DNA from: Candidatus Gastranaerophilales bacterium
GTDB lineage: Bacteria; Cyanobacteriota; Vampirovibrionia; Gastranaerophilales; Gastranaerophilaceae
Assembly: GCA_944322545.1 (NCBI GenBank)
Contig: CALUPF010000033.1
Coordinates: 62,001 to 126,000, forward strand
Length of the DNA: 64,000 nt
Direction: 5' to 3'
The notes beneath the pieces are model-generated. The model worked only from the letters and a program-made list of their open reading frames with translations. It was not told the DNA's origin and did not search any database. Both the position numbers and the translations under genes were made by a program. Below are positions 16,708 to 23,951 of this stretch, piece after piece. How positions within the stretch are numbered: the first letter of the stretch is position 1; every line of letters starts with the position of its first letter.

Positions 16708-18561
16708 ATGGCGACCGACAAATTAAAAGAAGAAGTTAAACAGACACTATCCATTCTCCCTGAATTAAGCGGTTCATATCAGTTTTTTGATGAGAATGGT
16801 GAAATAATTTATGTTGGAAAAGCCAAAAACCTAAAAAGAAGAGTTTATAGCTATTTTAATAAACACCACGACTCACCAAAACTAAAAATAATGGTGCCAC
16901 AAATAGCAAAAATACAATTCATTGTCACGGACAGTGAAGTAGAAGCGCTAATTTTAGAATCACATCTCATAAAAAAACATAAGCCAAAGTATAATGTACT
17001 TTTAAAAGATGACAAAAAATTCCCATATTTTGTAATTACAGAAGAAGAATATCCAAGAATAATAGTTGCAAGAAAATCAAATAAAAACAAAATCAAAGGC
17101 AAATATTTTGGCCCATATACAGATTCAAGAGCAATGTATGCTACTTTAGACTTGATAAAAAAGCTGTTCCCACTAAAACAATGCAAAAATCCAAAATTCA
17201 AAGATCGTCCTTGTCTGTATTATCACATAGGCAGATGTATGGCACCTTGTCAAAAGCTGATTTCACCTGAAGATTACAAAAAAATACTCAAAAACGTGGA
17301 GCTATTTCTTTCCGGTAAACAAAAAGAACTTGTCACTGCACTGCAAAAAGAAATGGAAAAATTTGCAGCAAAAGAAGAGTTTGAAAAAGCAGCAAGATAT
17401 CGTGACAGCTGGCTGGATGTTCAAAAAACTATGGAACATCAAAAAGTTGTTTTTGAAAACACAAACATAAATCAAGACATCGCATCTGTTTATTTTGAAG
17501 GAAATCTTTTTGTCGTTTCAATGCTGCAAATAAGACAAGGTAGGTTAACAGACAAAAAAGATTTTCAATTCTCTAATACTGATGGAAATCTTTCAAACGA
17601 AGCTGAAGTTTTATCTACATTCTTAAAAGAATACTACACAATGGTGTCAGAGGTTGAAATTCCTTCGACTATTGTACTTCCAAAACTTTTAGAAAAAGAA
17701 GATGTCGAACTTTATTCAAAATGGCTGTCCGATAAAGCTGAAAAAACGATCAAAATAACTGACGCTTCAACAAAACGAAACATTGAACTTTTGAACCTTG
17801 CTCAAAAAAATGCCAAATTCTACTTTGAAAAAGTAAAACTAGAAAAACTCACAGAAATTCAAAGAGATTACAATGAAGTAGGTAGTTATATCCAAGAAAA
17901 ATTAGGACTCTCAAAATTCCCATACATTGTAGAATGTTTTGATATTTCTCATATTCAAGGTACAAACACAGTAGCGTCAATGGTTACGTTTGAAAACGGG
18001 CTCCCTAAAAAATCCAAGTACAGAAAATTCAAGGTTAAATCAACAGAATCAAAACCTGATGATTTCAAATCATTGCAAGAAGTTGTAGAAAGAAGATATT
18101 TCGGCAAATTAACAGAAACGCTTCCAATGCCTGATTTAATAATCATAGATGGAGGTAAAGGACAATTATCATCAGTTATGGAAATTTTTGACGCGCATGA
18201 TTTTCATCCTGACGTCGTATCATTAGCTAAAAGGCTTGAAGAGGTTTTCAAGCCTCATGAATCAAACCCAGTTATATTTCCAATAAACTCACCTGCGCTT
18301 TATTTCTTCCAAAGAATAAGAGATGAAGCCCACAGATTCGCCATTACTTTCCATCGGAAACTAAGAGGACAAAAAGCAACAGAGTCTATTTTAGACGAAA
18401 TCAAGGGTCTTTCTAAACAAAATAAAGAAATACTAATCAAAGAATTCAAAGATATAAAACACATCTCACAAGCAAGCTACGAGCAGCTTTGCGAGAAAGT
18501 CAACAAACGTTGTGCCAAAGCTGTGTACAACTTTTTCAATCCGAATATTCAAATTGATTAG
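16708..18561 (+). CDS. uvrC: Excinuclease ABC subunit C
   Basis: Makes both incisions in nucleotide excision repair. The 617 residues contain the GIY-YIG nuclease (about 20-100: GSYQFFDENGEIIYVGKAKNLKRRV) and four Cys near 167-187 (CKNP...CLYYHIGRCMAPC). A UVR helix pair is near 210-245, the RNase H-like second nuclease follows (ECFDISHIQGTNTVASMV, LIIIDGGKGQL), and a C-terminal helix-hairpin-helix. Probably in one transcript with ade. Convergent with the spermidine-synthase-like gene, overlapping 4 bases. Confidence 0.97.
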   Translation: MATDKLKEEVKQTLSILPELSGSYQFFDENGEIIYVGKAKNLKRRVYSYFNKHHDSPKLKIMVPQIAKIQFIVTDSEVEALILESHLIKKHKPKYNVLLKDDKKFPYFVITEEEYPRIIVARKSNKNKIKGKYFGPYTDSRAMYATLDLIKKLFPLKQCKNPKFKDRPCLYYHIGRCMAPCQKLISPEDYKKILKNVELFLSGKQKELVTALQKEMEKFAAKEEFEKAARYRDSWLDVQKTMEHQKVVFENTNINQDIASVYFEGNLFVVSMLQIRQGRLTDKKDFQFSNTDGNLSNEAEVLSTFLKEYYTMVSEVEIPSTIVLPKLLEKEDVELYSKWLSDKAEKTIKITDASTKRNIELLNLAQKNAKFYFEKVKLEKLTEIQRDYNEVGSYIQEKLGLSKFPYIVECFDISHIQGTNTVASMVTFENGLPKKSKYRKFKVKSTESKPDDFKSLQEVVERRYFGKLTETLPMPDLIIIDGGKGQLSSVMEIFDAHDFHPDVVSLAKRLEEVFKPHESNPVIFPINSPALYFFQRIRDEAHRFAITFHRKLRGQKATESILDEIKGLSKQNKEILIKEFKDIKHISQASYEQLCEKVNKRCAKAVYNFFNPNIQID

Positions 18562-20099
18562 TTCCAATATCTCCAGCCTTGCAAATAGTAGTCTAATATT
18601 GCAGGCTTATCTAATGTTGAATATTTGATATTGTCTCTTATGATGTCTTTTTCAATAACAAATGCTTTTTTGAAAGTTTCTTTATCTAAATATTTAGTTG
18701 GAACAGCCAATTTAAATTTATCTAAATCATATTTAACGTTAGAAGCCATAACAAAGCCCCAGTCACCAAAAGACGGTACATAAACATGATAAGGATATGT
18801 ATATCTAAATCCAGCTGCTTTCAATGTTTCATTCACACACCAGTATGCTTCTGATGAAAAATAAGGACTTGTTGACTGTGAAACTAACAAACCATCTTTA
18901 GAAAGTTTTTTTCTAACAACTTTATAAAACTCTCTGCTATATAATCTAGCCAAAGAAGAATTATTCGGGTCAGGTAAATCAACTATTATCACATCAAAAA
19001 ATTCGTTAGAATTTTCAACATATTTAAACGCATCAGAATTAACAATTTTCACTTTAGGATTAAAAAAGCTGCCTTGATTTAGCTCTTTAACTATTCTGTT
19101 ATATTTAGCAAGGTCTGTCATATCCTTGTCTAAATCAACAACAGTAATATTTTTAACATCTTTGTATTTTAAAAGTTCTCTTGCAGCAAGTCCGTCACCA
19201 CCGCCTAGGACTAGAATATTTTCTTTATGCTTAGCTAATGACATAGGTACGTGAATAAGCAACTCATGGTATCTATGCTCATCAACTGAAGAAAACTGAA
19301 CATTACCGTCTATAAAAAGTCTTATGTCTTCTTTATTTTGAGTCATAACCAATTTTTGATACTTTGTTTGTTTTGAAAAAATCACTCTGTCATCAAAAAT
19401 ATTGTTTTCCCAATATTTCATAAGCCCTTTTGAGCAAACAAAAATACCAATTAATAAAAACAAAATCAAAACAGCTGAAGTTCTAAGCTTAGCACGTCTT
19501 TTAAAAGTAATCTTATCTTTAAACCAATAAAAATTAATTATACCAACTACAAGATTCAAAAGCCCAGCAAAAACAGAACTTTCAAAAATGCCCATCAAAG
19601 GCAAAAGTAAAAACGGAAACGCTAATGTAGCAATAAATGCACCTAAATAATCTAATGACAATACGTTTGAGATGTTGTTTCTCAAATCATAATACTGTTC
19701 CATAATTCTTGTTAATAAAGGAATTTCAAGACCAATCAGTGTTCCAATTGCCATAATCAAAATAAACATGACAGGATAATAAATCGGCTCACACATATAT
19801 GAAAAATACAAAATAGGCACACATAAACCACCAACTATGGCCAAAATAATTTCTATTAATATAAACCAATAGATTAAATTGCTTTTAACAAGCCTAGAAA
19901 CTAACGTACCAAGCCCCATAGCTGTCATTGTGAGCCCAATTACAAGAGAAAACTGTTTTATGCTATCTCCTAAAAAATAAGAAGACACACTTCCTATCAA
20001 AAGCTCATAAATAATCGTGCAAAAACCTACGACAAAAACTGACAACAAAAGAATAACAGACTCTTTTGTTGTCAAAACATGTTTTTTATTTTCCACCAC
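18558..20099 (-). CDS. Membrane-anchored spermidine-synthase-like aminopropyltransferase
   Basis: 513 residues. The first about 215 form roughly seven membrane helices. A class I methyltransferase-fold aminopropyltransferase domain follows: YQKLVMTQ, DGNVQFSSVDEHRYHE, LVLGGGDGLAARE, VDLDKDM and VIIVDLPDP. The DEHRYHE and GGGDG motifs are those of SpeE-like enzymes; the usual catalytic Asp region reads DLPDP. Last gene of the PspA operon. Membrane-bound SpeE-like proteins recur beside PspA/DUF350 genes in many bacteria, but whether they make spermidine or modify something else is unproven. Start GTG, overlapping the preceding gene by 14 bases. Confidence 0.85.
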   Translation of the reverse strand: MVENKKHVLTTKESVILLLSVFVVGFCTIIYELLIGSVSSYFLGDSIKQFSLVIGLTMTAMGLGTLVSRLVKSNLIYWFILIEIILAIVGGLCVPILYFSYMCEPIYYPVMFILIMAIGTLIGLEIPLLTRIMEQYYDLRNNISNVLSLDYLGAFIATLAFPFLLLPLMGIFESSVFAGLLNLVVGIINFYWFKDKITFKRRAKLRTSAVLILFLLIGIFVCSKGLMKYWENNIFDDRVIFSKQTKYQKLVMTQNKEDIRLFIDGNVQFSSVDEHRYHELLIHVPMSLAKHKENILVLGGGDGLAARELLKYKDVKNITVVDLDKDMTDLAKYNRIVKELNQGSFFNPKVKIVNSDAFKYVENSNEFFDVIIVDLPDPNNSSLARLYSREFYKVVRKKLSKDGLLVSQSTSPYFSSEAYWCVNETLKAAGFRYTYPYHVYVPSFGDWGFVMASNVKYDLDKFKLAVPTKYLDKETFKKAFVIEKDIIRDNIKYSTLDKPAILDYYLQGWRYWN

Positions 20100-20343
20100 T
20101 CAAACCTCTTTGAGAAAATCTATTTCCATTTACGCTATTTTCTCTGTTAGAAGGATAATAACTTTCATCATAATTTCTGATATACCAAAAAGAATGATAA
20201 TGATGATGATGATATCCTCTATAACCAGGATAGCCATATCCTTTATAAGCCACATTAAAACACGCAAAATAAATAATTGCCAAAACAATAATAAGACATA
20301 TATAAATCAAAAACTCAAAAAATTTACCGTTATTAATCATCAC
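20086..20343 (-). CDS. Small Tyr/Gly/His-rich single-pass membrane protein
   Basis: 85 residues: one helix (about 8-32), then YKGYGYPGYRGYHHHHYHSF, a tyrosine/histidine-rich stretch, and a polar tail. It overlaps the upstream gene by 11 bases and the downstream speE-like gene by 14, so it is locked into the operon. Small proteins of similar placement (for example DUF4247) occur in other PspA-DUF350 clusters; I cannot assign it to that family from sequence alone. The histidine run might bind metal. Confidence 0.75.
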   Translation of the reverse strand: MMINNGKFFEFLIYICLIIVLAIIYFACFNVAYKGYGYPGYRGYHHHHYHSFWYIRNYDESYYPSNRENSVNGNRFSQRGLSGGK

Positions 20344-20935
20344 TCATCTCTTCTATCTTTTCATTTATAACAGCCAACTTTTCACAAACCCATTGTTTGT
20401 TTAACAAGAAGAATATTATCATTGCGATAAGTAAAAATAGTGAACCAAATTGAGAATGTGCAACATAGCTGCCTTTCACAAGCTGAATAGTTATATCAAT
20501 ATTGCGCATATTTTTTTCTTCAGTATTAAACTGGATATAATAAGTACCTTTTTCTTTAAAGGTCAAATATGCAGTCATTTTTCTTTCTGACTCTGACCAA
20601 TAACCCTCAGAATCATAACCTGATTCGTGCCAAAGATCTTTTCCAAATTCATATAAGGTATCTTTGTCTTTATCTAAAACTTCACCTGAAAGATATGTAG
20701 ATGTATTACTTCCTCCAAAGTTTGCAATAATCTTATATATCTTAGGTTGTTTGTCTATTTTAATTGGGCCATAAGTCATACCTTCTCTGATTTCATAATC
20801 AGTTCTTCCAACTGAAGTTGAAGCCTGAAGATTCAATGATGTAATAAAACATATTATTGAAAATATAACAACTATCAAAAGAAGATTGTTATAAAAAAGT
20901 TTATCTCTTAATTTTTGTTGAGGTCTGATTAACAT
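20333..20935 (-). CDS. Two-helix membrane protein with extracytoplasmic domain, PspA operon
   Basis: 200 residues. Helix near 15-38, an outside domain of about 120 residues (YEIREGMTYGPIKIDK, YLSGEVLDKDKDTLYEFG, AYLTFKEKGTYYIQF) that looks like a beta-sandwich, a second helix near 163-180, and a charged cytoplasmic tail. Not recognised. Its context suggests it senses or carries load for the envelope-stress system; similar two-helix proteins sit with DUF4178/DUF350 genes elsewhere. Confidence 0.7.
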   Translation of the reverse strand: MLIRPQQKLRDKLFYNNLLLIVVIFSIICFITSLNLQASTSVGRTDYEIREGMTYGPIKIDKQPKIYKIIANFGGSNTSTYLSGEVLDKDKDTLYEFGKDLWHESGYDSEGYWSESERKMTAYLTFKEKGTYYIQFNTEEKNMRNIDITIQLVKGSYVAHSQFGSLFLLIAMIIFFLLNKQWVCEKLAVINEKIEEMSDD

Positions 20936-20945
20936 AAATCTTTCC

Positions 20946-21818
20946 TTAAATTGCTACCGTAAAATCGACCATAAAAAATACCAATAAAGCAAAACATGTG
21001 ATGCATGTGAATTCAATTAATCCAGCTGCAACGTTATTGTTTTTCAACTCTTTATTGATATCAATTGCTTTTACAATAAAGTTTCCTAAAACATATCTCA
21101 CTGTTGGCAACATCAATAAAATTGCAGAAAGATCAACAAAATAAGTAATCAAACTATTTTTCCAACCATCGACATCACCTAAAGTCGCTTTCATCAAAAT
21201 AATACCAATAGCAATGATATTCCCTGCTAAAGCAATGCCTACAGCATAATTATCATTTTCTAATTCATCGTGCACAGAATATGGTGTAATCAAATCATAA
21301 ATTCGTAAAAATACGAACATAAAACATACACTTAAAACATAATAGAAAATCGAAGACAAAATACCACCAACATCACCATTTACGCAAGCAGCAATGATAA
21401 GACCATGAGCAACATAAAAGCCAAAATACACTGCAGCTGTACCTATATTTTTGTCCTGCAATAGTTCTTTAGCATTATCAAAACGATTAAGCATAATCTT
21501 TCTTGTGACAAACCCTGAAGTGGTCATCAAAATCACACCGACAATAGCATATGCAACGTACATTGCTAAATCTAGTCTGAATGTTTTTGAAGAAGGTCCA
21601 ACAAAAGCACCAACGAGAATAAATGCCATACCAATAATATAGCCACAAAAAGCTATTATAGCCGTATAATTGCAATTTTTAATCTCTTTTTCCGGTTGAA
21701 AAATAGAAAACTTGTCAAACATAAACTTAGACAAAAAAAGCATTATACAAGATATAGAAAGGTAAATCACACTTTGAACAATCGGATTGTTACCAACAGC
21801 TGATAAACTTATGCTCAT
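20946..21818 (-). CDS. Tandem DUF350 (YjfL-type) membrane protein
   Basis: 290 residues with about eight predicted helices, twice the usual DUF350 length. The characteristic phrase (short acidic loop, K/D-N-x-A, then a Gly-rich helix) occurs four times: IKNCNYTAIIAFCGYIIG, LQDKNIGTAAVYFGFYV, LENDNYAVGIALAGNIIA and LKNNNVAAGLIEF. It is therefore two fused DUF350 units. Function of DUF350 is not established; genes recur with PspA homologs (for example yjfJ-yjfL). AGGAG ribosome site; 8 bases from the DUF4178 gene. Confidence 0.85.
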   Translation of the reverse strand: MSISLSAVGNNPIVQSVIYLSISCIMLFLSKFMFDKFSIFQPEKEIKNCNYTAIIAFCGYIIGMAFILVGAFVGPSSKTFRLDLAMYVAYAIVGVILMTTSGFVTRKIMLNRFDNAKELLQDKNIGTAAVYFGFYVAHGLIIAACVNGDVGGILSSIFYYVLSVCFMFVFLRIYDLITPYSVHDELENDNYAVGIALAGNIIAIGIILMKATLGDVDGWKNSLITYFVDLSAILLMLPTVRYVLGNFIVKAIDINKELKNNNVAAGLIEFTCITCFALLVFFMVDFTVAI

Positions 21819-21826
21819 ATATACTC

Positions 21827-22489
21827 CTATTCTTCTTTATTTCTTAAAACAGTAATTTGAGATGGACGCATTATCTGTGAAACAAATACTTCATAATCAC
21901 TTTCACCCCATTTTTCAACACTTAAAGATTTATTTCCTTGTACAAAATCCCAGTAATACAATTTTTCAGCTTTTTCACTATCACAAAATCTGTAAAATAT
22001 AGCATCACCAGAATCTTCATAATGATAACCACAAACATTGCCACTTTCTTCATCGTCAATGACATCAAGCTGTGAAGGAGTCAAACCAATGTCTGATAGT
22101 TTCTTTTTCTCTAAAACAACACTTACTTTTGTATCATCATCGTCTTCGACTTCAACCCAAACTTTTTCATCACTTCCATCATCACATTCGAGCTCAAACC
22201 AAGAGAAATCACCTTCTTGATATAAGTGTTTAGCAATAACTTTTAAAGTCATATCTTTATAATCTTTGCCAACACCTCTTAACTCGAACACGCCTCCTCT
22301 TTCTAAGTTAACAACGTGAGGAGCCTGTTCAGGAACTTTGTTTAAATTTTCTTTTATAGACTTATTTCTCATTATGATTGCATATGCAACAACTGCACCA
22401 ATCACAAGAAATATCACATTCATACCAATTGTTGGTATAAGAATTATCACAAATATGGCTAAGATGATTAACACTATTGCTAACTGCAT
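21827..22489 (-). CDS. DUF4178-domain membrane protein
   Basis: 220 residues. Two hydrophobic segments near 3-40, then a DUF4178-like domain (FELRGVGKDYKDMTLKVIAK, FSWFELECDDGSDEKVWVEVE, then WGESDYEVF with a C-terminal core). The domain is known mainly by its association with PspA, DUF350 and spermidine-synthase genes, and has no assigned reaction. AGGAG 6 bases before the ATG. Confidence 0.8.
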   Translation of the reverse strand: MQLAIVLIILAIFVIILIPTIGMNVIFLVIGAVVAYAIIMRNKSIKENLNKVPEQAPHVVNLERGGVFELRGVGKDYKDMTLKVIAKHLYQEGDFSWFELECDDGSDEKVWVEVEDDDDTKVSVVLEKKKLSDIGLTPSQLDVIDDEESGNVCGYHYEDSGDAIFYRFCDSEKAEKLYYWDFVQGNKSLSVEKWGESDYEVFVSQIMRPSQITVLRNKEE

Positions 22490-22513
22490 ATAAACTCCTT
22501 TGATTTTATTTAA

Positions 22514-23290
22514 TTACTCATTTTCTAACTCATTTTTTTGTTCAGCTAGATTGTCTTGCTCAACATTCAATGACTCAGCAGATTTATCTGTAAGCATTTT
22601 AGCTTTTAACTCAGCCAAAGAAGCTTGCACATCAGGAGATGCACTAGTACCAATAGCAGCATTAATTTCCTTATCAATATCAGTTTCAATACTCTCCATT
22701 GATCCATAAGCTTCAGCTAAAGCCTCTTCCTCGTTAATTTTGTTTTTCATATCTTCTAACATACCTGCTGTGCTATCCGAACTCATAGAAACAAGCTGTT
22801 GGTTGATTTTTTTAGAAGAAACAGCAACCGTATGACGAGCTTTTAATGTTTTTAATTGGTTTTCCCATTTTTTAATTTGTTCTTTCAAGTTAGCAATTTT
22901 GTTTTCAAATTGCTTAATCATCATATTGTATTTTTCTAAAGAGCTTTTTAACTGAGCAGCATCTTGCAAAGCTTCTTGTTTTTTTGCCAAAGCTTCAGAT
23001 GCTAATCTGTCAGCCTCTGCGGGGTCCAAAGTACCTGCTTGAGCATTTTTCAAAAGAGCCATTGCTTTATTTTCATAATCTTGAGCAATTTGTTTCTTTT
23101 CTTCTAACTCACGTTTTGTTGAAATGGCAATAGCTTTGACTTCAGCTAACCCCTTCAAACTATTATCAAAATCTGTTTTTAAATCTCTAATTCCTTGTTC
23201 AGCTAGTTTTATAGGATCTTCGAATCTTGATACGATTGAATGCAATGTTGCTTGTATAACTTTGAACAATCTTTCTAATAAACCGGCCAT
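22514..23290 (-). CDS. pspA: PspA/IM30/Vipp1-family membrane remodelling protein
   Basis: 258 residues, almost wholly helical. N-terminal amphipathic helix MAGLLERLFKVIQATLHSIV, then EDPIKLAEQGIRDLKTD (the family signature) and long coiled coils to about 215. A C-terminal extension makes it Vipp1 length rather than the about 220 of classic PspA. PspA/Vipp1 proteins are ESCRT-III-like and assemble on stressed inner membranes. It sits directly behind the J-domain gene, 22 bases away, with AGGAG. Confidence 0.93.
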   Translation of the reverse strand: MAGLLERLFKVIQATLHSIVSRFEDPIKLAEQGIRDLKTDFDNSLKGLAEVKAIAISTKRELEEKKQIAQDYENKAMALLKNAQAGTLDPAEADRLASEALAKKQEALQDAAQLKSSLEKYNMMIKQFENKIANLKEQIKKWENQLKTLKARHTVAVSSKKINQQLVSMSSDSTAGMLEDMKNKINEEEALAEAYGSMESIETDIDKEINAAIGTSASPDVQASLAELKAKMLTDKSAESLNVEQDNLAEQKNELENE

Positions 23291-23312
23291 TTAAAAACTC
23301 CTATCTAATTCA

Positions 23313-23693
23313 TTACTTACTATATTTCTCTTCAAAATAATTATATGCGAGGTTCAGTTTTTTCACAACTTCCTGAGCAATCGCAAGTTTTTTTTCATTT
23401 CCATAAAATTTATCAGGATGATATTTTTTTAAAAGTCTTTTATATGATGCTTTTATTTCATCAAAACCAGCACCATAAGGCAATTCTAAATTTGCGTAAT
23501 ATTCTTGTTCTAAAGAATTCCCATCAGCGCCTTTATTAACTGCTTTTTTTACACGATCATCGAATTCAATATCTTCAAAATCGGGACGAAAATTATCAAA
23601 ATTAACTTCAGGCCCAAAATCATTTTCATATACAGATTCTTTGGAATTAATATTGCTTCTTACGATATTTTTTATTCTTTTAAATAAACTCAA
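23313..23693 (-). CDS. J-domain protein with Vipp1/PspA-like N-terminal amphipathic helix
   Basis: 126 residues. The N-terminus MSLFKRIKNIVRSNINS closely resembles the membrane-binding helix that starts Vipp1/PspA proteins. A polar acidic linker follows to about 60, then a J domain (about 65-126: YANLELPYGAGFDEIKASYKRLLKKYHPDKF) with HPD at 92-94. A membrane-directed Hsp70 co-chaperone for the adjacent PspA is the natural inference; in Chlamydomonas, J-protein CDJ2 delivers VIPP1 to HSP70B. TTG start at 23693. First gene of the operon. Confidence 0.82.
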   Translation of the reverse strand: MSLFKRIKNIVRSNINSKESVYENDFGPEVNFDNFRPDFEDIEFDDRVKKAVNKGADGNSLEQEYYANLELPYGAGFDEIKASYKRLLKKYHPDKFYGNEKKLAIAQEVVKKLNLAYNYFEEKYSK

Positions 23694-23874
23694 AATTCAA
23701 TCCAATATTCTCAGTTCTCATTGATATCATAATATTAAATTTTTCAAGGGTTTTCAAGTTTTTTCTTTTAAAAATAAAAAATATATGATACTATTGTCTT
23801 AGTTTAGTAATAAAGAATAATAATTTTATATGAATTAATAAACTAATTCAAAACACAATTGAAAATTAAGCCTA

Positions 23875-23905
23875 AATATGCTCATTTACAAAAAATTAGC
23901 ATATT
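23875..23905 (+). promoter_or_regulatory. Inverted repeat in the rny upstream region
   Basis: AATATGCT (23875-23882) and AGCATATT (23898-23905) form a perfect 8-bp stem with a 15-base loop, about 47 bases before the preferred rny start and inside the probable 5' leader. No T-run follows, so it is not a terminator. It could be a regulator site or an mRNA structure. Confidence 0.4.
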
Positions 23906-23951
23906 GGGTTATGTGTATATATAGAAAATGAGGTATAGGACAATCGAAACA

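Follow-up and report, generated by a model that had tools for sequence, protein, structure and literature searches.

The analyzed window is a stretch of 64,000 nucleotides from a Candidatus Gastranaerophilales genome (contig CALUPF010000033.1, positions 62,001 to 126,000). Its minus strand carries, at 23693–18558, seven genes for a J-domain protein (for which we coin the name PspJ), a PspA/IM30 family (bacterial ESCRT-III) protein, a DUF4178 protein, a double DUF350 membrane protein, two proteins of 200 and 85 amino acids (S200 and S85), and a membrane-embedded aminopropyltransferase (SpeE). Membrane-embedded SpeE enzymes were found to be nearly always accompanied by partner proteins with a C-terminal Gly-Lys, and the J-protein belongs to a family that is tied to PspA. 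We propose, with about even confidence, that the operon encodes a module for envelope maintenance that is built on PspA and couples two machines. The full mechanistic proposal is more tentative: SpeE would introduce a new modification, N-epsilon-(3-aminopropyl)lysine, perhaps extended, on an exported protein tail, and the J-protein would make DnaK the missing ATPase of PspA.

A C-terminal lysine accompanies the membrane-embedded SpeE

The speE gene (18558..20099, minus strand) encodes a protein of 513 amino acids that matches NCBIfam PRK03612 (2.7e-188) and Pfam Spermine_synth (3e-43). The AlphaFold2 model (predicted local distance difference test, pLDDT, 91.1) consists of seven helices and a spermidine-synthase domain. 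The soluble part matches spermidine synthases (7xif at E 2.5e-17), and its fold also matches 1uir and 1inl. In 43 SpeE sequences the donor-binding and catalytic residues of the Gly-rich loop, the DxxDP motif and the YHE motif are invariant; the invariant positions include Q248, Q268, E274, Y277-H278-E279, D322, D324, D356, D374 and D377-P378. The original prediction of a membrane-bound aminopropyltransferase-like enzyme was thus borne out, as the active site is intact and is fused to a seven-transmembrane region. Hydropathy analysis also gave seven hydrophobic helices, and Lys or Arg residues are present in the loops on the N-terminal side in 43 of 43 sequences. The seven helices and this positive-inside pattern therefore predict a catalytic domain outside the cytoplasm, a location that we favor somewhat over the inside.

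S85 (20086..20343, minus strand), the predicted aminopropyl acceptor, was characterized by the C-termini of its homologues. It is a membrane/lipoprotein-like protein with a single helix and a Gly-Tyr-rich tail that terminates with Gly-Gly-Lys, and all of its homologues (27/27) end with Gly-Lys. The possibility that S85 is a lipoprotein everywhere was ruled out, because a Cys follows the helix in most Gastranaerophilales and is missing in gammaproteobacteria. The wider cluster type contains lipoproteins of about 250 amino acids, which have only the C-terminal tail in common with S85; in clusters of Chlorobi, KSB1, Bacteroidota and deltaproteobacteria they end with RSRSGGFGK or similar.

A partner with a C-terminal Gly-Lys was found by a strict pattern in 61 of the 64 scoreable SpeE loci, and inspection revealed such a partner in the remaining three (L081, L114 and L086) as well. 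In contrast, six of the seven loci without SpeE have no Gly-Lys partner (Fisher 3.9e-6 versus the SpeE loci). The background frequency of a Gly-Lys C-terminus is 6 of 934 open reading frames (ORFs). In records from outside the sample, the partners in Ensifer and Alteromonas end with Gly-Lys, and those in Tritonibacter and Novosphingobium end with Lys. The correlation of the lysine tail with SpeE appears to be undescribed in the searchable literature, a scope that leaves aside supplements and subscription papers. On the basis of these sequence patterns we consider it nearly an even bet that SpeE aminopropylates the C-terminal lysine of S85 and thereby yields a spermidine-like group.

The strongest alternative is that SpeE acts at the membrane to produce a free polyamine or an aminopropylated lipid headgroup, that the lysine tail is only a targeting or assembly tag, and that PspA responds to the altered membrane. 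This explanation would suit an enzyme that is fixed in the membrane and has kept the spermidine-synthase pocket, and in Ravi 2024 (PMC11237479) it was suggested that the polyamine level or aminopropylation alters membranes. However, the window genome encodes a soluble spermidine synthase (SpeE) and, at G000:C15, the AdoMet (S-adenosylmethionine) decarboxylase SpeD, which supplies the donor, and therefore housekeeping spermidine is already covered. In addition, the membrane-bound fusion studied by Li et al. 2019 (Biochem J) reportedly failed to replace spermidine synthase in a deletion strain and is said to have been proposed to aminopropylate something else, the acceptor being left unknown. 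The alternative also leaves unexplained why a lysine end occurs with SpeE and a Gly-Gly end with a spermidine ligase, and we regard it as rather unlikely. The original prediction of a membrane-repair or membrane-charge module is narrowed here: its charge part was vague, and the tail evidence favors protein aminopropylation over a change of lipid charge, with lipids as a less likely target.

Several additional observations were made on polyamine enzymes and related clusters. A second, partial AdoMet decarboxylase gene is present at a contig edge (L122, G000:C1:1-200), beside a second L121-like response regulator, which suggests that the assembly mixes strains or is contaminated. The speE2 gene of P. 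aeruginosa (PA4774) was considered as encoding the same enzyme and was rejected, as its product is a thermospermine synthase of 349 amino acids (PMC11107197). Where a cluster has only one, short DUF350, its partner protein is reduced to a tiny one-helix form that still ends with lysine (L215:4527-4673, 48 amino acids; L212:4534-4728, at most 64 amino acids). An ion-channel gene is part of SpeE-type or ligase-type DUF350 clusters at L063, L074, L088, L219 and L222, with a TVGYGD filter in the first three. Polyamines block potassium channels, and the link between ion channels and polyamine clusters may matter.

A J-protein family tied to PspA

The pspJ gene (23313..23693, minus strand) starts with TTG and encodes 126 amino acids with a Pfam DnaJ match (3.8e-9). 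The protein starts with an amphipathic helix resembling that of PspA (residues 1-17), which a linker connects to a J-domain (residues 64-121) that carries the His-Pro-Asp (HPD) motif. Its first 16 residues were compared with four canonical PspA/Vipp1 helices and reached a score of 41.2, close to the scores of the four reference helices among themselves (41–50), while the best of 1069 other N-termini scored 9.0. The Vipp1 reference helices were taken from PDB-matched sequences; for the other two we used what we take to be the N-termini of E. coli and B. subtilis PspA. The neighboring pspA gene (22514..23290, minus strand) encodes a protein of 258 amino acids, over the full length of which the PspA_IM30 domain extends (Pfam, 1.1e-40, residues 3-231). 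The protein matches Vipp1/PspA structures in the PDB by sequence and is the sole PspA found in the genome.

The distribution of the two proteins was analyzed in an order sample of 192 Gastranaerophilales genomes. The J family was found in 13 and PspA in 18 of them, and all 13 J genomes also have PspA (hypergeometric 1.7e-16, treating the genomes as independent, which they are not). In 13 of 13 cases the J gene lies just upstream of pspA on the same strand. A CesT gene lies between the two in G150, and CesT_Tir_1 (PF22550) is absent from every other J genome of the sample; neither the window genome nor its congeners gave a match to it. The arrangement J-CesT-PspA was observed in all 17 readable loci of a Latescibacterota-like phylum (that of L098), in two KSB1 loci, and in 10 of 11 matches of a Chlorobi/Bacteroidota sample, the eleventh (L208) having the order PspA-DUF4178-like-J-SpeD. 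Both genes are on one strand in all readable pairs (39/39). The tree distances of J and PspA are correlated, with 0.865 overall and 0.80–0.92 within groups. There is thus strong evidence for a J-PspA pairing, nearly always with J on the upstream side, across Gastranaerophilales, Latescibacterota, Chlorobi/Bacteroidota and KSB1. As judged from gene order and the N-terminal helix, the J family is tied to PspA and occupies, in this genus, the place that CesT holds elsewhere.

This agrees with the original prediction that the J-protein makes this operon distinctive: it stands at the head where CesT stands in other operons, and the main text of Ravi 2024 (PMC11237479) contains no mention of DnaJ or a J-domain. 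A J-protein family dedicated to PspA also appears to be undescribed in the literature covered. In chloroplasts, HSP70B, CDJ2 and CGE1 assemble and disassemble VIPP1 (PMC10602608), and Vipp1 of Synechocystis binds DnaK2 and DnaK3 (PMC4297356). By analogy with the action of CDJ2-HSP70B on chloroplast VIPP1, it is quite likely that the J-protein recruits DnaK to act on PspA.

Alternatively, the J-protein might act as a chaperone adaptor whose clients are CesT or the membrane proteins of the operon, with the helix as a mere membrane anchor. Short amphipathic helices are common as anchors, and in most triads the CesT gene separates J from PspA. However, two-gene J-PspA units exist with neither CesT nor other operon genes adjoining. 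In L145, L147 and L159-L162 a separate J-PspA pair is located away from the DUF350 genes. Furthermore, the J and PspA trees match, and the J helix resembles the PspA helix specifically, so that an adaptor for other clients is improbable. Least probable is a decoy with a vestigial J-domain, in which the PspA-like helix would cap PspA or compete with it at the membrane. Against the canonical PspA consensus, the J helix does score higher (41) than the helix of the partner PspA (25), but the HPD motif and neighboring residues are invariant across a 12-member alignment from four groups, which argues for a working J-domain, with a lone outlier in L208.

The J-family protein of that locus, encoded between the DUF4178-like gene and SpeD (L208:1501-1866), has HQD in place of HPD, the only case seen. 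Stand-alone J-PspA pairs directly follow a helicase-like ORF of about 490–850 amino acids in several Gastranaerophilales genomes (L145, L147 and L158-L161), with the motif FKGxWRxYQxRVLxELE where it was read; in L146 a J gene without PspA lies near the same helicase. Candidate J homologues in photosynthetic cyanobacteria were rejected, as the inspected matches have a J-domain but no PspA-like helix, and many are long proteins. The candidate L165 (138 amino acids) looked similar, but its helix failed to score.

Proposed mechanism

In the preferred reading, PspA would polymerize on the stressed membrane inside the cell, as a bacterial ESCRT-III. The J-protein, which would replace in this genus the CesT/Tir-like chaperone heading related operons, would bind the same membrane or the polymer via its PspA-like N-terminal helix and recruit DnaK, and the ATP cycle of DnaK would assemble, disassemble and recycle PspA. 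The analogous job on eukaryotic ESCRT-III is performed by Vps4. SpeE, residing in the membrane, would use decarboxylated AdoMet to aminopropylate the C-terminal lysine of S85, which would create an envelope-located polycationic tail. In E. coli-type operons, ligation of spermidine to a lipoprotein with a C-terminal Gly-Gly should lead to the same end state. The lysine side chain is a four-carbon amine and yields the spermidine skeleton together with an aminopropyl group; therefore, Gly-Gly plus spermidine would be nearly equivalent to a Gly-Gly-Lys tail plus an aminopropyl group. DUF350 and the beta-sandwich protein S200 may form a membrane scaffold or channel.

Several points weigh against this reading. 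A catalytic domain outside the cytoplasm must depend on the export of decarboxylated AdoMet, and nothing points to such export, whereas a catalytic domain inside is opposite the exported tail, unless the modification precedes export. The genome has the soluble spermidine synthase in addition. A lysine-tailed partner was not identified in the Burkholderia or Gemmatirosa records, the more distant haloarchaeal enzymes have partners with a C-terminal residue other than lysine, and conservation of the lysine tail could have another cause. Lastly, the J gene occurs without an adjacent pspA in L146, L148 and L149.

If the reading is correct, bacteria have two chemistries for placing a spermidine-like group on the tail of an envelope protein. 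For the membrane SpeE fusions accompanied by DUF350, which have had no known acceptor, the invariant C-terminal lysine of a neighboring exported protein names a candidate. Whether an ATPase remodels bacterial Vipp1/PspA polymers was stated to be open in 2021 (Cell, PMC8281802), and Ravi 2024 called the regulation of PspA without an AAA partner unknown (PMC11237479). With a gene that keeps its place next to pspA in several phyla, the J-protein points to DnaK as a candidate PspA ATPase.

Operon layout and conservation

All seven ORFs on the minus strand were confirmed. The DUF4178 gene (21827..22489; Pfam DUF4178, 1e-13) encodes 220 amino acids, with an N-terminal membrane hairpin followed by a soluble acidic domain according to hydropathy. 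The double DUF350 (YjfL-type) membrane protein (20946..21818, 290 amino acids) matches Pfam DUF350 in two stretches (1.7e-47). S200 (20333..20935) was characterized by AlphaFold2 (pLDDT 87.9), structure alignment and co-located homologues; it consists of a membrane helix, an extracytoplasmic eight-stranded beta-sandwich and a second membrane helix. Alignment with the p24 GOLD domain (VIA-align) gave Z 8.3 and a root-mean-square deviation of 2.6 over 89 positions. Assignment to one specific fold was rejected, as GOLD, PPC and jelly-roll domains all scored near Z 8, and hence only a GOLD/PPC-like beta-sandwich is claimed. Neither S200 nor S85 matched a Pfam or NCBIfam family. The original prediction had called these two small membrane proteins distinctive; this was not confirmed, because in Nitrospirae and proteobacteria homologues of both occupy the corresponding positions, and the S85 tail also occurs on the lipoprotein that the wider cluster type encodes.

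The intergenic gaps are, in gene order, 22, 24, 8 and 10 bases, followed by overlaps of 11 and 14 bases, exactly as predicted (gaps of at most 24 bases and the last three genes overlapping). The uvrC gene is convergent and the RNase Y gene is divergent, and thus the unit has clear ends. The region between the J and RNase Y genes (23694..23927) is the presumed promoter site. The best promoter-like match upstream of the J gene is TTGAAA-17-TATTAT (23757-23729), of a class no commoner than in shuffled sequences; overall, the promoter and terminator scans yielded signals no better than in shuffles. A hairpin of 16 pairs with a T run at the first speE codons (20039-20075, minus strand) was judged to be a by-product of coding; it is partly retained, in weaker form, in the closest relatives only and is gone in more distant ones.

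The double DUF350 protein, which was used as the anchor for 80 named loci, is present in 13 of the 192 genomes of the order sample. The named relatives are gut genomes of Candidatus Gastranaerophilales. Within the genus, 13 members were sampled. Six of them, the window genome and five others, have the operon, always in the order J-PspA-DUF4178-DUF350-S200-S85-SpeE and beside RNase Y. In the other seven, DUF350, J and PspA are all absent together, and therefore the module is gained or lost as a block. All six congeners with the operon share one gene order, more than chance would give, and the flanks are clear, as would be expected from the claim of one conserved unit, and from gene arrangement it is nearly certain that the seven genes form one operon. 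Other genera of the order retain the core, with a variable head: J followed by CesT (L028), CesT alone (L010, L029, L033 and L034), or neither (L031 and L032). A speD gene lies 3′ of speE within the operon in L010, L028 and L029. A contig labelled "uncultured Clostridia" (L046) carries the full Gastranaerophilales operon by RNase Y, with a DUF350 protein that is 80% identical, and is probably a mislabelled genome.

Comparison with known systems

The core of the window operon (PspA-DUF4178-double DUF350-membrane SpeE) is an already known type, and the window operon is a variant of it. The predicted recurrence of this gene set is therefore correct, whereas the accompanying statement that no role is known was incomplete, because clues exist in the operon of Ravi 2024 and the cluster of Li 2019. 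The former consists of CesT/Tir, PspA, DUF4178, an eight-transmembrane DUF350, a lipoprotein and a seven-transmembrane spermine synthase (PMC11237479). The window operon has the eight-transmembrane DUF350 and the seven-transmembrane region N-terminal to the synthase domain, and it resembles the second group of Ravi 2024 (Shewanella AAN56744-AAN56747) in having PspA, DUF4178, double DUF350, membrane SpeE and a small exported protein. It differs in that J takes the place of CesT/Tir, so that the CesT/Tir-PspA pairing is lacking, in the additional beta-sandwich protein of 200 amino acids, and in the short protein of 85 amino acids in place of the lipoprotein of about 250 amino acids (Ctha_1186 domain).

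The window operon shares the membrane SpeE fusion and DUF350, and in some relatives SpeD, with the clusters of Li et al. (2019, Biochem J 476:2579), which are said to combine AdoMet decarboxylase, a fusion of a membrane (major facilitator superfamily) part with spermidine synthase, and DUF350. Differences are that SpeD is encoded elsewhere in the window genome and that the lysine tail is proposed here as the acceptor.

The J-protein, in which HPD is present, would be comparable to the HSP70B-CDJ2-CGE1 system of Chlamydomonas in being a J-domain protein dedicated to a polymer of the PspA/Vipp1 family (Liu 2005, 2007, as summarized in PMC10602608). In contrast to CDJ2, it is bacterial and has a gene fixed beside pspA and a PspA-like N-terminal helix.

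The E. coli yjfIJKLMC operon has the same skeleton, with YjfI, PspA, DUF2491, DUF350 and a DUF1190 lipoprotein plus YjfC. YgiC and YjfC are peptide-spermidine ligases (Pederick 2023); that YjfM and YgiB are the substrates is an assumption. The DUF1190 proteins of ligase-type systems end with Gly-Gly in 7 of 7 cases, with a similar Ser/Arg/Gly tail. The window operon and yjfIJKLMC/ygiBC thus have in common PspA, DUF350 and a lipoprotein-like partner with a C-terminal tail beside a polyamine enzyme, and neither the ATP-grasp ligase nor the DUF1190 Gly-Gly lipoprotein is part of the window operon. In the E. coli type, an ATP-grasp ligase is combined with a Gly-Gly end, whereas in the window type an aminopropyltransferase is combined with a Gly-Lys end, which in S85 is Gly-Gly-Lys.

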